From Lodderomyces elongisporus (taxonomy: Eukaryota > Ascomycota > Pichiomycetes > Serinales > Debaryomycetaceae), in the NCBI RefSeq assembly GCF_030384665.1, contig NC_083675.1, positions 1 through 64,000 of the forward strand: a stretch of 64,000 bases of DNA, given 5' to 3'. The position numbers and the translations under genes are program-made. The notes beneath the pieces are model-generated. The model saw nothing but the letters and a program-made list of their open reading frames with translations. It had not been told where the DNA came from and searched no databases. Shown piece after piece: positions 1-18,200 of the stretch; the stretch's first letter is position 1; every line of letters starts with the position of its first letter.

Positions 1-447
1 TGTTTCAAGTGCATCCTTACACCGAGTTTCAAGTGCATCCTTACACCGAGTTTCAAGTGCATCCTTACACCGAGTTTCAAGTGCATCCTTACACCGAGTT
101 TCAAGTGCATCCTTACACCGAGTTTCAAGTGCATCCTTACACCGAGTTTCAAGTGCATCCTTACACCGAGTTTCAAGTGCATCCTTACACCGAGTTTCAA
201 GTGCATCCTTACACCGAGTTTCAAGTGCATCCTTACACCGAGTTTCAAGTGCATCCTTACACCGAGTTTCAAGTGCATCCTTACACCGAGTTTCAAGTGC
301 ATCCTTACACCGAGTTTCAAGTGCATCCTTACACCGAGTTTCAAGTGCATCCTTACACCGAGTTTCAAGTGCATCCTTACACCGAGTTGCAAGTGCATCC
401 TTACACCGAGTTGCAAGTGCATCCTTACACCGAGTTTCAAGTGCATC
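1..447 (-). repeat. Telomeric repeat array, 24-bp unit, ~18.5 copies
   Basis: The first 447 bases are a head-to-tail array of a 24-bp unit. On the minus (G-rich) strand one unit is GGTGTAAGGATG followed by CACTTGAAACTC. The core GGTGTA(A/C)GGATG is shared with the 23-bp Candida albicans and 25-bp Kluyveromyces lactis telomere repeats (recalled from family knowledge). The C-rich strand runs 5'-3' inward from base 1, the orientation expected at a left chromosome end. Copies are identical except two near the inner edge (about 389 and 413) that have TTG where the others have TTT, and base 1 departs from the unit. All frames lacking stops here are open only because 24 is a multiple of 3, so the 152-codon reading frame is not a gene. 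Strongly supported as telomere; exact terminal length is unknown because the window is cut. Confidence 0.93.
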
Positions 448-1987: not shown

Positions 1988-4057
1988 ATGTCGATCAGCC
2001 CACTCAGATCACCTTCGAAAAAGACAAGAGAAATAATCAATGTTGATTTGCGACGATTCAGTGCAACGAGCTTGTCTCCAGTAAAGACAACGCCCAATGG
2101 ACGGTCCGGATTGAGGTCGCCGGAGAAAAGACTGATTATCGACTTGGACCAATCAGCAAAGAAACGGGCAAAACGCACCTTGTACAGCAGATTGATGCAA
2201 GAGTATGAAGACTCGAGTGAAAATGAATTGGCCGGTCAAGAACTCAAACTTGCAGAAAAGATTCTTGACGAGTATAACGTCAACTATGGGAGCGACGTCG
2301 AGTTAGAAATCGATGAATCCGAGTCGAAACCGACAAGACGACGAAGACAGAAACGTACTCCAAAAGCAAAAAGCAAGGTTGAACATTTTCTGGAAGACAG
2401 CATGGACTCTGACTTGGATGTCGACTACGAAGCAGAAAAGGAGATAAAGAAAACTGAAGCAAAGCCAAGGGCATTTAAGCGTCGAAGAAAGCCCGAGGTA
2501 TTAAACAAGGTGAAAAGCATCTTTCAACAAGACGATGACATGTTTGGTCTGCTGCAGTCGTTAAAGGCTTCTTCATCGTCACCAGCACCAGCATTTGCAC
2601 CGGTATCTGAACCAGCATCTACACCAGCATTTGAATCAACATCTGCATTGGAACCTGCATCAGAGTCGAATCCTCCATCTCAATCACGATTGCAATCACC
2701 AAAGAGAAAACCCGCAAAACCCACCAGTTCATTTGCCGAGACACTACTCCAATCAAATCAGTATACAAACAACATAATCAGTGGAGTCAAAAATGGCGAC
2801 GAGAAAACTAAAACTGAGGCAAAATTTGAACCACTCCCACTTCCCAAGTTGGACACAGACGGCCACATCGCCGATGAAGAGTACCTCATAAAATACATGA
2901 ATGGACAGGACCCCTCGAAAACAAATTACGAAAGATTAGTTGACGAGCAAGCATTCTCGTTGGAAGGACCCGAAGGTTACTTTGAACAACTACATGCCAG
3001 GTTCAGATCCAACACCAAATCATTGAGCTCGTCTGCACCTTTAGTCACCAGAGATGAGTTTCGAAAGGCAATCCAATTGGGCGACCTGCTCTTGCACGAG
3101 TCTAAACAAGCTCTTAAGAAAGTTCACAAATCCCTTTACCACCAATGGTGCTTTGAGCTTTCGCAAGGTTTCAATATCAATTTCTTTGGTGTTGGCTCCA
3201 AGATCAACATCATCAATGACTTTGCTGAAAACTATTTTATAGATTGGTGGAACGATGTCTATACAGGCAAAACTCCTCCCCAAATCCTCGTTGTCAATGG
3301 CTACAACCCAAATGTCGATTTCAAGTCCATTGTTTTGCAAATAGCTGATATCCTTGTTCGAGAAGAAACTGCAAAGCTTCCCAAACACATTTCCGAAACA
3401 GTTCCTTTCCTCGTTGATTACATGAAAAACCAAAAGTTGACTATGCCAAAACTAGTGTTGATTGTACACAGTATAGACGGAGAGGCGTTGAGACTGGATA
3501 AGATCCAAGGGCTTTTTGCGCAACTAATCAGCATCCCCGAGATTTGGGCAATCACGTCAACGGATCACGTGAATGCGCCACTATTGTGGGATCTGTCAAA
3601 GTCCAAGAACCTGAACTTGATCTGGCACGATATGACAACTTATGAAGGCTACACTTCAGAGCTTTCGTTCAAGGATATTCTTGGCTTAGGAAAATCCAAA
3701 AAGTTTGTTGGTAGTCTTGGTGCCAAGTTTGTGCTTGGCTCATTAACTGAAAACCACCGCACATTATACCGCAAGCTTATGGAGAGTCAGTTGAACAAGA
3801 TGAAACCCGTCGCTGATGTGAGAGGTGTGGGTCTCAAGGGAGTTGTAAAGTACGCTACGGAGCTCAGAGAGTTGCTCAGGGAGTGTCTTAGTGCATTCAT
3901 TGTAGCAAACGAGATTACGTTTAGAACAATGATGAAGGAATACATTGACCACAAAATGTGTCAATTGGTCAAGGATGCAGCCGGGTTGGAGCTTTTGTTT
4001 ATCCCATTCACCTATGGAGAAATAGAAGAGCTTAGCAAGCAAGAATTTGAAACGTAA
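1988..4057 (+). CDS. ORC2: Origin recognition complex subunit 2 (Orc2)
   Basis: This 689-residue protein is one of the six ORC subunits that mark replication origins and load MCM. Residues 1-270 are disordered, with basic SPSKK-like N-terminal motifs, acidic stretches and an S/P/A/E-rich segment. The conserved ORC2 AAA-like core runs about 315-600 and includes the ILVVNGYNP and IWAITSTDHVNAPLLWD segments. The last ~90 residues form the winged-helix region ending FIPFTYGEIEEL. Yeast Orc2 is 620 residues, so this copy is slightly longer in its disordered head. The ATG at 1988 follows a pyrimidine-poor leader. CTG codons occur, for example near 2550, and would be serine in the CTG clade. It sits only ~1.5 kb from the telomere repeats. 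Confidence 0.95.
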   Translation: MSISPLRSPSKKTREIINVDLRRFSATSLSPVKTTPNGRSGLRSPEKRLIIDLDQSAKKRAKRTLYSRLMQEYEDSSENELAGQELKLAEKILDEYNVNYGSDVELEIDESESKPTRRRRQKRTPKAKSKVEHFLEDSMDSDLDVDYEAEKEIKKTEAKPRAFKRRRKPEVLNKVKSIFQQDDDMFGLLQSLKASSSSPAPAFAPVSEPASTPAFESTSALEPASESNPPSQSRLQSPKRKPAKPTSSFAETLLQSNQYTNNIISGVKNGDEKTKTEAKFEPLPLPKLDTDGHIADEEYLIKYMNGQDPSKTNYERLVDEQAFSLEGPEGYFEQLHARFRSNTKSLSSSAPLVTRDEFRKAIQLGDLLLHESKQALKKVHKSLYHQWCFELSQGFNINFFGVGSKINIINDFAENYFIDWWNDVYTGKTPPQILVVNGYNPNVDFKSIVLQIADILVREETAKLPKHISETVPFLVDYMKNQKLTMPKLVLIVHSIDGEALRLDKIQGLFAQLISIPEIWAITSTDHVNAPLLWDLSKSKNLNLIWHDMTTYEGYTSELSFKDILGLGKSKKFVGSLGAKFVLGSLTENHRTLYRKLMESQLNKMKPVADVRGVGLKGVVKYATELRELLRECLSAFIVANEITFRTMMKEYIDHKMCQLVKDAAGLELLFIPFTYGEIEELSKQEFET

Positions 4058-10343: not shown

Positions 10344-10752
10344 TTGTATTGAACAACCCTTGTTGTTTTTCTTTTGGGCTTTATTAATTTATTTATTTGT
10401 TGGATGGTTGGTTGGTGTGTTTATTTCTTCTTTTTCGTTTCTTACTTGAAGTCTTTATTTTATTGCATTCTATTTTAGTAAAGAGTGTTAAAACTGTAAT
10501 CGTATAGTTGATTCCATTGTGTGGCACACAGACAAATTGCAACACAAATCCTTCTTAAAGAATTAAAATCAAATTGGTACACAAAACCGCACACTAACTG
10601 GAACCAAGAGTTAGAATATATGAAAAACGTCAAAAAGCAAAAGTAGTTATAAATACACACACGCACACAAATTGATCCGCTCGACTCTTTACTTTGTCTC
10701 CACATCACTCAACTTTATACATACACACACATATATATCAAGATATCCATCA
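10344..10752. promoter_or_regulatory. Divergent HMI1/VPS52 promoter region
   Basis: This is 409 bp with T-rich and CA/TA-rich tracts near 10655-10740. A non-ATG reading frame continues 27 codons upstream of the VPS52 ATG from a TTG at 10672, but there is no reason to call it translated. Confidence 0.5.
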
Positions 10753-12276
10753 ATGACAATAGCAGTGCTTGAAAAAATACTACCACTTGATACGAACCAT
10801 GGTGCAGGTGTTGAGGCTAGTCCCCACGCTGAAGCTAACCGAGCGGACACTTCTGAATCGGAATTGAAACATCCCACCAAGGAACTCGACAGCGAAAGCC
10901 TCGTCGAATTGATGGCCGACTTTCGAGCTTACAACAAACAGCTTGCAAAATCACGACATGATCTCGAACCCATTGGCAAGCTATTAAACACATTTTCAAA
11001 GGACTTGAAAGAACTATCTTCAAGTCTCGTTGACTTGGAAAAACAATCAAATGATCTTACGCAGGACTCGAAATTCAACAAAGAAGTCACCAAACGCCTC
11101 GAACAAGTAATTCAGCAAAAAGTGCTTCCACCAGATGCAATCAAAGACATACTCAAAGAAGATTTATCAAATCATTACCTTGAAAAAGTACAACTCGTAC
11201 TAGAAAAAGCACTGCCCGATGCAGCTACCCTCATTGAAGCAAAAGTGATGGAGAGGTTCCGTGACTTTATGATTGAAAAAATTCGGTCACTAAGAGCTGA
11301 ACGGAGCACTCCGTCACAAAACGTCCAGCAACAGCTTCTCGAAGCAAACAATTTATACGTGTTTTTGCAAGTACGACAACCCGTTTTGGCAGACCAATTG
11401 AAGCAAGCCTATTTCCATACCATGCGTTGGTACTACAAGAGCAAGTTTGCAAAGTATATTTATGCATTGGAGAAAGTACAACGCAAGCCACTGGATGGAC
11501 CAGTCTTTCTCCGTCCTATTATTTTATCGTCATTTGAACAACGACTTAAAGCACTAGGGACAAAAGAGCGATGCATTCCGTCGCAGTTGGCAGAAACAAT
11601 TCCAACAACATATTACATGGAGTTTATACTACGTCAATTCTTGACCGCGCTCGAAGACAATGCAACAGCCGAGTATTACTTTGTTGTTGAGTTTTTCCAC
11701 CACGGAGAGGAAAAAGACCATTCATGGGTTTCGGAAGTGTTTGGTGATGTATTTGACTTGAGCACCAGTTTCCTTCAATATTTGGTCAACGGCACAAGCG
11801 ATATATTTGGAATTTTATTGCTGATAGAAGCTATACAACAGGCGCGGGAAAGACTAACCAACAACCATGTTCCTATAATAGATGCGCATCTAAATTCGTT
11901 GCTTTTACAGCTTTGGCCAATGGTTACTCGAAACATAGACCTCAATTGTGAATATCTCAAGCGCAATATTGTGAAAACGCCCAAGTCATTAGCACCATTG
12001 CAAATAAGTCAGCAGTTTGGTCTTTTTTATCTGGCCTTGCTCAACTTTAGAGAAGACCATGGACCCATTAGTCTGCGGATAGGTAGAGTTCGAGACGATT
12101 TTGAGAATGGACTTACAAAAGCTAGCGCTCACTTTAAAGGTGTAAACCGAGAGATTTTCCTCTACAACAATTACTTTTTGGTGTTAAATATTTTAAAAAA
12201 TGAGGCTGCTGAAGCTGAAGCCGAAATTAAACATTTTCAATCACTTGCTGACGCGTACCTGACAACACGTTCGTGA
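10753..12276 (+). CDS. VPS52: GARP complex subunit Vps52
   Basis: The 507-residue protein is the Vps52/Sac2 subunit of GARP, which tethers endosome-derived vesicles at the late Golgi. An N-terminal amphipathic coiled-coil region at about 45-125 (LNTFSKDLKELSSSLVDLEKQ) precedes the alpha-helical Vps52 family body with SKFAKYIYALEKVQRKPLDG and FFHHGEEKDHSW. I start at the ATG at 10753. The frame runs open further upstream, but only from a TTG. Length is a little under yeast Vps52 (641), mostly through shorter linkers. Confidence 0.93.
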   Translation: MTIAVLEKILPLDTNHGAGVEASPHAEANRADTSESELKHPTKELDSESLVELMADFRAYNKQLAKSRHDLEPIGKLLNTFSKDLKELSSSLVDLEKQSNDLTQDSKFNKEVTKRLEQVIQQKVLPPDAIKDILKEDLSNHYLEKVQLVLEKALPDAATLIEAKVMERFRDFMIEKIRSLRAERSTPSQNVQQQLLEANNLYVFLQVRQPVLADQLKQAYFHTMRWYYKSKFAKYIYALEKVQRKPLDGPVFLRPIILSSFEQRLKALGTKERCIPSQLAETIPTTYYMEFILRQFLTALEDNATAEYYFVVEFFHHGEEKDHSWVSEVFGDVFDLSTSFLQYLVNGTSDIFGILLLIEAIQQARERLTNNHVPIIDAHLNSLLLQLWPMVTRNIDLNCEYLKRNIVKTPKSLAPLQISQQFGLFYLALLNFREDHGPISLRIGRVRDDFENGLTKASAHFKGVNREIFLYNNYFLVLNILKNEAAEAEAEIKHFQSLADAYLTTRS

Positions 12277-15281: not shown

Positions 15282-18200
15282 TCAATCCTTTTTAGATGGC
15301 GACTTTGGTTTATACTCTGGTGATTTAGGTGAGTAGTTTGGCGATCTAGGAGAGTACTGGGGAGATGTAGGGGAATATTGTGGAGATGTAGGTGAATAAG
15401 AAGGTGATGTAGGTGAGTACGAAGGTGATGTTGGAGAATATTGCGGTGATGTAGGTGAGTACTGTGGTGAAGTTGGAGAGTAACTTGGAGATGTTGGAGA
15501 GTATGATGGAGATGTTGGTGAGTAACTTGGCGAAGTTGGTGAGTATGAAGGTGATGTTGGGGAGTAGCTTGGCGAAGTTGGCGAGTAGCTTGGAGATGTT
15601 GGTGAGTAACTTGGAGATGTTGGTGAGTACGAAGGTGATGTTGGTGAGTACGAAGGTGATGTTGGTGAATATGATGGAGAAGTAGGTGAGTAACTTGGAG
15701 ATGTTGGAGAATAACTTGGCGAAGTTGGCGAGTAGCTTGGAGATGTAGGTGAGTAACTTGGAGATGTAGGTGAGTAACTTGGCGAAGTTGGAGAATACGA
15801 AGGTGAAGTTGGAGAATAAGATGGAGATGTTGGAGAATAGGATGGAGATGTAGGTGAGTAACTTGGAGATGTCGGCGAGTATGATGGAGATGTTGGGGAG
15901 TATCCATAGCCTGGACTGGTTCCACCATATCCTGGACTGGTACCGCCGTATCCTGGTGTTGTGCCATAGCTGAATGGCGAAGTATTGCCAGGCGAGGTTG
16001 GTTGGCCACCATAAGAAGTCAAACCTCCATTCATGTTATCCGACATGGCGTTATGCACCGGCGAGAAACCTGCACCCTCATCCACAACAATCTGCTCATC
16101 CTCCATCTCAAGATCTCTGTATGGAGTAGCACCACCGTCATCAGCAACTTCAACCATTGCAACATTAGTAGGTGCCTGCTGCAACATCTTGTCATCAACC
16201 ATAACATCGAATGAACCGGTTCCCAAGGGAGCCATTTGACCCAACATAACATTCTCCGAAATACCTTTACAATCGTCCAACTCTGCTGAAGCTGCAGCGT
16301 CCAACAAAATCTCAACGGTTTCCTCGAAAGAACAACGCATCAACGCACCTGTGTCGGATCTATTAATACCATGACGAGTAATGGCCATCAAGTGACCACG
16401 AGATGTCATAACATCCACCAACAATGCCATATGACGATAGTTGACATAAGAACCATCAAATGCAATAACATTCAAAATCTCCTTGAACAACGCCGATCTA
16501 GTAGCCTCGATACCCAACACCGACAAAATCTCAATAAAGTCATTAGAATAAGTACGTGCGGAATCAACTCCCGGTACTGCCATGACATCGGCCAAATTAA
16601 CACCATCGGTTTCCAAAACCCACTCCTTACCTTGTTTAAACTCACCGGTCGCATCTGGTTTACTAACCTTGTGTTGCATCATAAACACTCTGGTAATACC
16701 AGGAATACCACGCAATGAGATAGACTCCAACATGTGCGCTTCAATTCTCTTCAATATTTGATCTTCTTCGGCATCAGCATCCTCGTCCAAAGACTTAGGA
16801 TCCCTAACAACACGACAACGGATAATCAACTTATCTGCAGTATCATCGGACCAGATAACAAACAAGTCATCACCAAAGTTCTGTGATATTTTCTCGGCAA
16901 CTTGCGCCATGGTCAATTGCTTATCCAACATCTTTGCACGGTCCAACTCCAATCTCAACAACCATGGTGACTGCTTCTCAATGCTCTCCTCGACTTTTTG
17001 ATCGGGAATTGCAAAATAAGCTTCAACCGTATCGTAATCCTCTTCAATCACCGTAGTTCTTGGATCAGGATCATAATAGATTTCTGTTGATGAGGTAACA
17101 TTCTTCAAAGTTGTGTGCTCAATAGACGATTGAACAATCTTGGCCAGCTCGATATCAGATGCCACTTCTGGGTCCAAATAAACTGTTAATGCTGGTGTTT
17201 TGATGTTTTTGGCAACATTCAAAATCTCCTTCAATCTAGGAACACCCAATGTAACATTCTTTGAAGAGACACCGGCATAGTGGAAAGTGTTCAACGTCAT
17301 TTGAGTAGCAGGCTCACCAATCGATTGCGCAGCAACAACACCAACCATCTCACCAGGATGGACCACAGACTTTTGGAATTGAGTTTCAATCTCACCCAAT
17401 GCCCATTCAAATGAAGCCTTGTTAAGCTTGAACTCCTCAATAACCCTACGCGATGCAAGTCTTGATCTAACAAGACATTGGAACAACAACGTAGCATTTT
17501 CTTGTGCTTCCTTCATAAGCGGAGTATCACCTCTCACAACAAGGAATTTTGTGCACAAATCACGTACGCTCTCAACAATCTCGTCCAACCTCAAGTCCGA
17601 AGGCTTATCACGGCCACTGTGGAATATCTGCTGAGCATTCTGGATAATACGACGCAAATTGACTGGTAATGGCCAGCTAAAATCACCATTGGGGAAAACA
17701 ACATCTCTCAAATACTTTCTATCCTCAAGCAATTGATTATACTCTTCATCGAGTATTTTTTGCAACTCGACATCACCTTGGATTTCCTCACCAGACTCGA
17801 GCAAATTCGTTGAAATTGAAGCATTCTTTTCCAACACATCAATTCTATAACGCCTCTCAAAACTCTCATCTGATCCTGGAATCGTATCAACAGATTGTTT
17901 CTCAACTTGAGTAGCATCAATACCATCTTCACCATAGATGAATTGGATAATGTCACCAAGTGAGTTTCTTGTTGTACCATCATAATGCACCATAATGTCT
18001 TCCAAGGCTTTAACCAAACGACGTTGGATATAACCAGTTTCGGCTGTCTTAACGGCGGTATCAATAAGACCTTCTCTACCAGCCATCGCATGGAAGAAAA
18101 ACTCTTGTGGGGTTAAACCTCTCAAATACGAGTTTTCAACAAAACCTTTAGACTCTGGTGAGTAATCATCTTTGGTGAAATGAGGAAGAGACCTATCGGC

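Follow-up and report, generated by a model that had tools for sequence, protein, structure and literature searches.

Telomere repeats and C-strand ends in related systems

The telomeres of C. albicans and K. lactis consist of long non-canonical units of 23 bp and 25 bp, respectively (PMC12134996), with a GGTGT-AC-GGAT core, and the CaRap1 site has been described as GGTGT-N2-GGATG (PMC4416457). For Lodderomyces elongisporus, the motif AAGGATGCACTTGAAACTCGGTGT has been reported at both ends of the eight contigs of the NRRL YB-4239 assembly ASM3038466v1, which match the karyotype (PMC10586162). The telomere itself is therefore known and ordinary, and the repeat identified here is correct and already in print; the common register of the contig tips, the template and the array inside contig 6 that are described below go unmentioned in the available text of that paper. 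One telomerase RNA gene, TER1, has also been reported for this species, with no coordinates in the accessible part of the report (PMC5033589).

It has been shown that the C-strand of telomeres can end at preferred positions of the repeat, namely 5'-CTAACC in mammals and 5'-AACCCT (~50-60%) in Ustilago maydis (PMC6167521), and a preferred end is mentioned for Euplotes as well (PMC5562816). The latter paper (2017), in its available text, left open whether N. castellii prefers one C-strand end, and the corresponding text of PMC6167521 (2018) states that, among fungal telomeres, none had been the subject of a reported study of C-strand 5' ends comparable to its own. Our search of open-licence papers for HiFi reads combined with C-strand and overhang found no paper.

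The telomeric array at the left end of contig 3

The window analysed here (64,000 nucleotides) is the left end of contig 3 (C3; 2,328,861 bases) in an assembly of 8 contigs and 16,086,460 bases, in which C1 has 3,597,007 bases; it covers C3:1-64000, and over its first 10 kb it is identical to the C3 left-end sequence used in the comparison of contig ends below. A 24-bp repeat occupies window positions 2-447 (446 bases; 18.6 copies of period 24 with 99% matches according to Tandem Repeats Finder), and its unit on the G-strand, GGTGTAAGGATGCACTTGAAACTC, runs outward along the - strand, so that the C-strand faces outward with its 5' end. The initial annotation had described 18.5 units with almost no divergence in precisely this orientation, in good agreement with these figures. 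Divergence within the array amounts to two T->G changes (positions 389 and 413, + strand), which fall in the two full units adjoining the innermost partial unit; the resulting two degenerate units at this inner edge (386-433, - strand) read GCAACTC in place of GAAACTC. The array is preceded by a single T at base 1 (+ strand), where both the repeat and the candidate template described below require A; this T lies outside the repeat and pairs with a 3'-terminal A of the G-strand.

The 12-base core GGTGTAAGGATG, which had been proposed to be common to C. albicans and K. lactis, is not present there in full: the repeats printed in PMC12134996 match it at 11 of 12 positions in C. albicans (GGTGTACGGATG) and at 10 of 12 in K. 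lactis (GGTGTACGGATT). What is conserved in the L. elongisporus unit is the CaRap1 site (PMC4416457), in the form GGTGT-AA-GGATG, and the units of the array hold sites of this type. In contrast to both other species, the unit is 24 bp long, has AA rather than AC between the two core elements, and ends in the tail CACTTGAAACTC, so that the proposal of a distinct length and tail stands. A literature text search for GGTGTAAGGATG returned matches that concern other subjects, as judged by titles and the beginnings of abstracts.

All 16 contig ends (8.9 to 10 kb each) contain the array with the G-strand 3' end outward, as the initial annotation had expected, with 11 to 21 exact 36-mers per end, all of them in the expected sense. 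Across the genome, the 36-mer was counted 128 times in forward orientation, invariably at right ends, and 139 times in reverse, at left ends (126) and in an array inside contig 6 (13). An exact census of the C-strand 18-mer, which would miss diverged copies, gave 154 forward and 141 reverse matches. The left ends account for 139 forward and 0 reverse matches and the right ends for 0 and 141, and the remaining forward matches are 14 in the contig 6 array and one elsewhere in C3. Thus, the expectation that the repeat belongs to ends rather than to internal loci is borne out at 16/16 ends, whereas one array, also outward-facing, does lie inside contig 6; this array and the single C3 site are the only occurrences outside contig ends in this census. 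Single-base substitutions other than GAAACA were detected at the left (L) or right (R) ends C3L, C3R, C4R, C5R, C6L and C7R, within the three innermost full units. At C1R, the middle part of the array has one full unit between two short GGTGTAATTC units, an arrangement that is absent from the other 15 ends.

A candidate telomerase-RNA template

The single C3 site, C3:1310241-1310272, consists of 32 nt of the C-strand, TTACACCGAGTTTCAAGTGCATCCTTACACCG (24+8, or 1.33 copies of the unit), and the next base on either side breaks the match to the repeat. It is the only exact 18-mer match outside arrays in the genome-wide census, and at the sequence level this is what had been predicted, namely one template of ~1.2-1.5 copies. 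The 3-kb stretch around it contains no open reading frame longer than 116 aa; a 90-aa frame that spans the template is taken to be fortuitous. An Rfam search of this candidate TER locus produced three matches up to E=1, each below the gathering score and unrelated by name. Downstream of the template, at C3:1311953-1312000, a GTATGT resembling a 5' splice site is followed by TACTAAC, a pair that recurred at this spacing in 36 of 5000 mononucleotide shuffles. In Candida relatives, the 3' end of telomerase RNA is processed by the spliceosome. This mechanism is the subject of PMC4299874, where the available text contains nothing on L. elongisporus. We infer from the sequence that C3:1310241-1310272 is the template in use and belongs to the TER1 of PMC5033589.

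Most contig tips share one register of the repeat

Less expected than the repeat itself is the position at which the assembled chromosomes stop, which is one and the same base of the unit at most ends. Read on the G-strand, 12 of the 16 contig tips end in ...GAAACA, although within the repeat GAAAC is followed by TC. Ten of these 12 end in unbroken ...GGTGTAAGGATGCACTTGAAACA, and the other two (C4R and C8L) are scrambled just inside. The four tips that lack the extra A end in ...GAAAC (C5L), ...GAA (C5R and C7L) and ...TTG (C8R), i.e., 1 to 5 nt before the position of the terminal A, so that all 16 tips fall in a 6-nt span. If registers were uniform, the chance of at least 12 of 16 tips at one base would be ~1e-12, that of at least 10 of 16 ~2e-9, and that of all 16 within 6 nt ~1.5e-8. 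These are contig tips rather than mapped 5' ends, their terminal position rests on the assembly, and they are probably single terminal reads, such that n=16 does not represent a population. At the 10 unbroken tips, the CaRap1 site of the terminal unit is intact and lies 10 bp inside the duplex end.

The terminal A is untemplated because the template has A at this position and would give T after GAAAC. We also considered whether it is encoded by the end of the template, and this is ruled out given that the template yields T and that its 5' edge corresponds to ...GGTGTAA, a position different from the tip. The 24-mer that includes the extra base has 14 matches, none of which is the template. If the C-strand end is fixed there, this position, which falls 9 nt before the template edge and midway along the template copy, would be set by the last event of C-strand priming or trimming and not by telomerase.

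The library kit used for the L. elongisporus assembly is given in PMC10586162, and in the description of PMC12130431 this kit first strips single-strand overhangs; end repair and A-tailing come next, and then the ligation of overhang adapters. Such a treatment would cut a native end back to the 5' end of the C-strand and add one A, and the tips can therefore be read as 5'-GTTTCAAGTG. The T at base 1 of the window is best read as this A-tail, and positions 2-11 (+ strand) as the putative C-strand 5' terminus. Together, the 16 contig tips likely reflect a preferred or fixed C-strand 5' end. This would be comparable to mammals and U. maydis, where C-strands stop at preferred repeat positions (PMC6167521); those cases differ in that 6-bp repeats were studied by STELA, whereas here the evidence comes from the contig tips of a budding yeast with a 24-bp repeat.

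Further irregularities near the tips are a GG-AT-GTAAGG insertion in C6L and a TG duplication in C8L. The assembly paper reports that 12,416 bp of rDNA were trimmed from the left telomere of contig 8 (PMC10586162). The remaining tip ends in CACTTGTGAAACA, that is, GAAACA with a 2-nt duplication, which suggests that the rDNA may have joined at the tip of a native read and not in the cell.

Internal GAAACA scars and the left end of contig 6

The GAAACA sequence also occurs inside contigs, twice in the tip region of C4R, once in C6R, once in C7L (match 116-139) and once in contig 6 at 10,458. String-graph contigs switch reads where the next read starts, and we take each internal copy to be a scar left by a switch of the assembler to a read that starts at its own native tip.

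The contig 6 scar belongs to an outward-facing array of ~365 bp (about 10,442-10,807). The sequence distal to this array, C6:1-10443, matches C7:116-10560 at 99.9% over 10.44 kb and carries reading frames with RhoGAP and CFEM domains. At the inner border, contig 6 reads CCCAGT|GCATCCTTACACCG and contig 7 reads CCCAGT|ATGGACATGG, and the junction has 3 nt (AGT) in common with the repeat. L. elongisporus is diploid (PMC10586162). The simplest reading is that the end of contig 7 was copied or joined onto an existing telomere of contig 6 and that this older telomere remains the terminus in a fraction of the molecules; the left end of contig 6 may also be a chimera. The scar at 10,458 suggests that some contig 6 molecules end there, beneath the 10.4-kb copy of the contig 7 end.

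A model of the chromosome end and its alternatives

We propose that the window starts with a native telomere extended by telomerase on the C3:1310241-1310272 template, and that its recorded tip results from a preferred C-strand end followed by A-tailing in the kit (probability about 0.88). Under this model, telomerase would copy the 32-nt template TTACACCGAGTTTCAAGTGCATCCTTACACCG by one 24-nt unit per round and realign through the 8-nt TTACACCG, which is present at both template ends. Rap1 would bind the GGTGTAAGGATG sites in the duplex and Cdc13-type proteins the 3' tail, and, through its synthesis and trimming, the C-strand would come to start at one preferred base (5'-GTTTCAAGTG). This would place the end of the duplex 10 bp past the last Rap1 site, with the 3' tail starting as TC-GGTGTAA. 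Most contigs would end in ...GAAACA because the kit cut off this tail and added A.

That the array is instead an internal satellite or an assembly artefact is barely conceivable; one array does lie 10.4 kb inside contig 6, but the presence at 16/16 ends, the single orientation, one matching template sequence and the reported match between contigs and karyotype (PMC10586162) all point to a telomere, and we regard the native telomere at the start of the window as near certain. A more serious concern is that the common register could be technical, with true ends that vary and with end-repair enzymes or the trimming of reads or contigs stopping at a preferred sequence; in principle, a kit enzyme could favour one register. 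There are only 16 tips, of which four stop 1 to 5 nt before the terminal A and two more are scrambled just inside. Yet a 24-bp tandem array truncated at random would yield all registers, and both humans and U. maydis are known to have preferred C-strand ends (PMC6167521), so that we consider a technical origin rather unlikely.

The extra A could also be cellular if a polymerase left an untemplated A on blunt leading-strand ends and telomerase sometimes extended these, leaving GAAACA inside the array. This would account for the five additional copies inside contigs (four lie no more than ~125 bases from a contig tip, and the remaining one is in the contig 6 array, in its outermost unit) and for the clean T->A change at the C6R and contig 6 scars, as expected from mismatch extension. 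Nevertheless, A-tailing in the kit predicts one A at every end (PMC12130431), an identical scar would arise within a string-graph contig from a read that begins at its own native tip, and the small indels at some scars fit a switch between reads; a cellular origin of the A is thus quite unlikely. Returning to a preferred C-strand end with a kit-derived A, the stricter version, in which the C-strand 5' end is fixed at one base of the 24-nt repeat and the scars mark native ends, including a second end of contig 6 at 10,458 in some molecules, is one that we moderately favour.

If correct, a budding yeast would provide a case of precise C-strand end definition, and long-read libraries prepared with overhang removal and A-tailing would record C-strand ends for free in HiFi assemblies. 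A 24-nt unit resolves registers four times as finely as a 6-nt unit, and hence priming by polymerase alpha, trimming by nucleases and protection by Rap1/Cdc13 could predict separable positions. The raw HiFi reads for the L. elongisporus assembly are public (SRX19568455).

Sequences adjoining the array

Between the array and the first gene there is a short stretch (448-1394) with no match of at least 150 bp to the other 15 ends among the matches listed (the comparison covered 8.9-10 kb per end with E up to 1e-10 and left out matches that ended in the first 560 query bases). The first gene (1395-1730, - strand) encodes an RPC11-like product, a small RNA-polymerase subunit whose zinc ribbons are of the RPB9 and TFIIS types (Pfam PF02150 and PF01096). 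It is followed by the gene for origin recognition complex subunit 2 (ORC2; 1988-4057, + strand; PF04084 and PF24882). With these two genes 1-4 kb from the telomere, the gene-free subtelomere is short at this end.

Among the other ends, the left and right ends of contig 2 have ~1.2 kb in common at 89% identity, array included. Besides the arrays and this pair, the only other pairs of ends among those listed are C6L/C7L (99.9%) and C4R/C5L (467 bp at 68%, 4-10 kb inside). Further into the window, Tandem Repeats Finder identified a 42-bp (21-bp) tandem array of 12.4 copies at 15381-15902.
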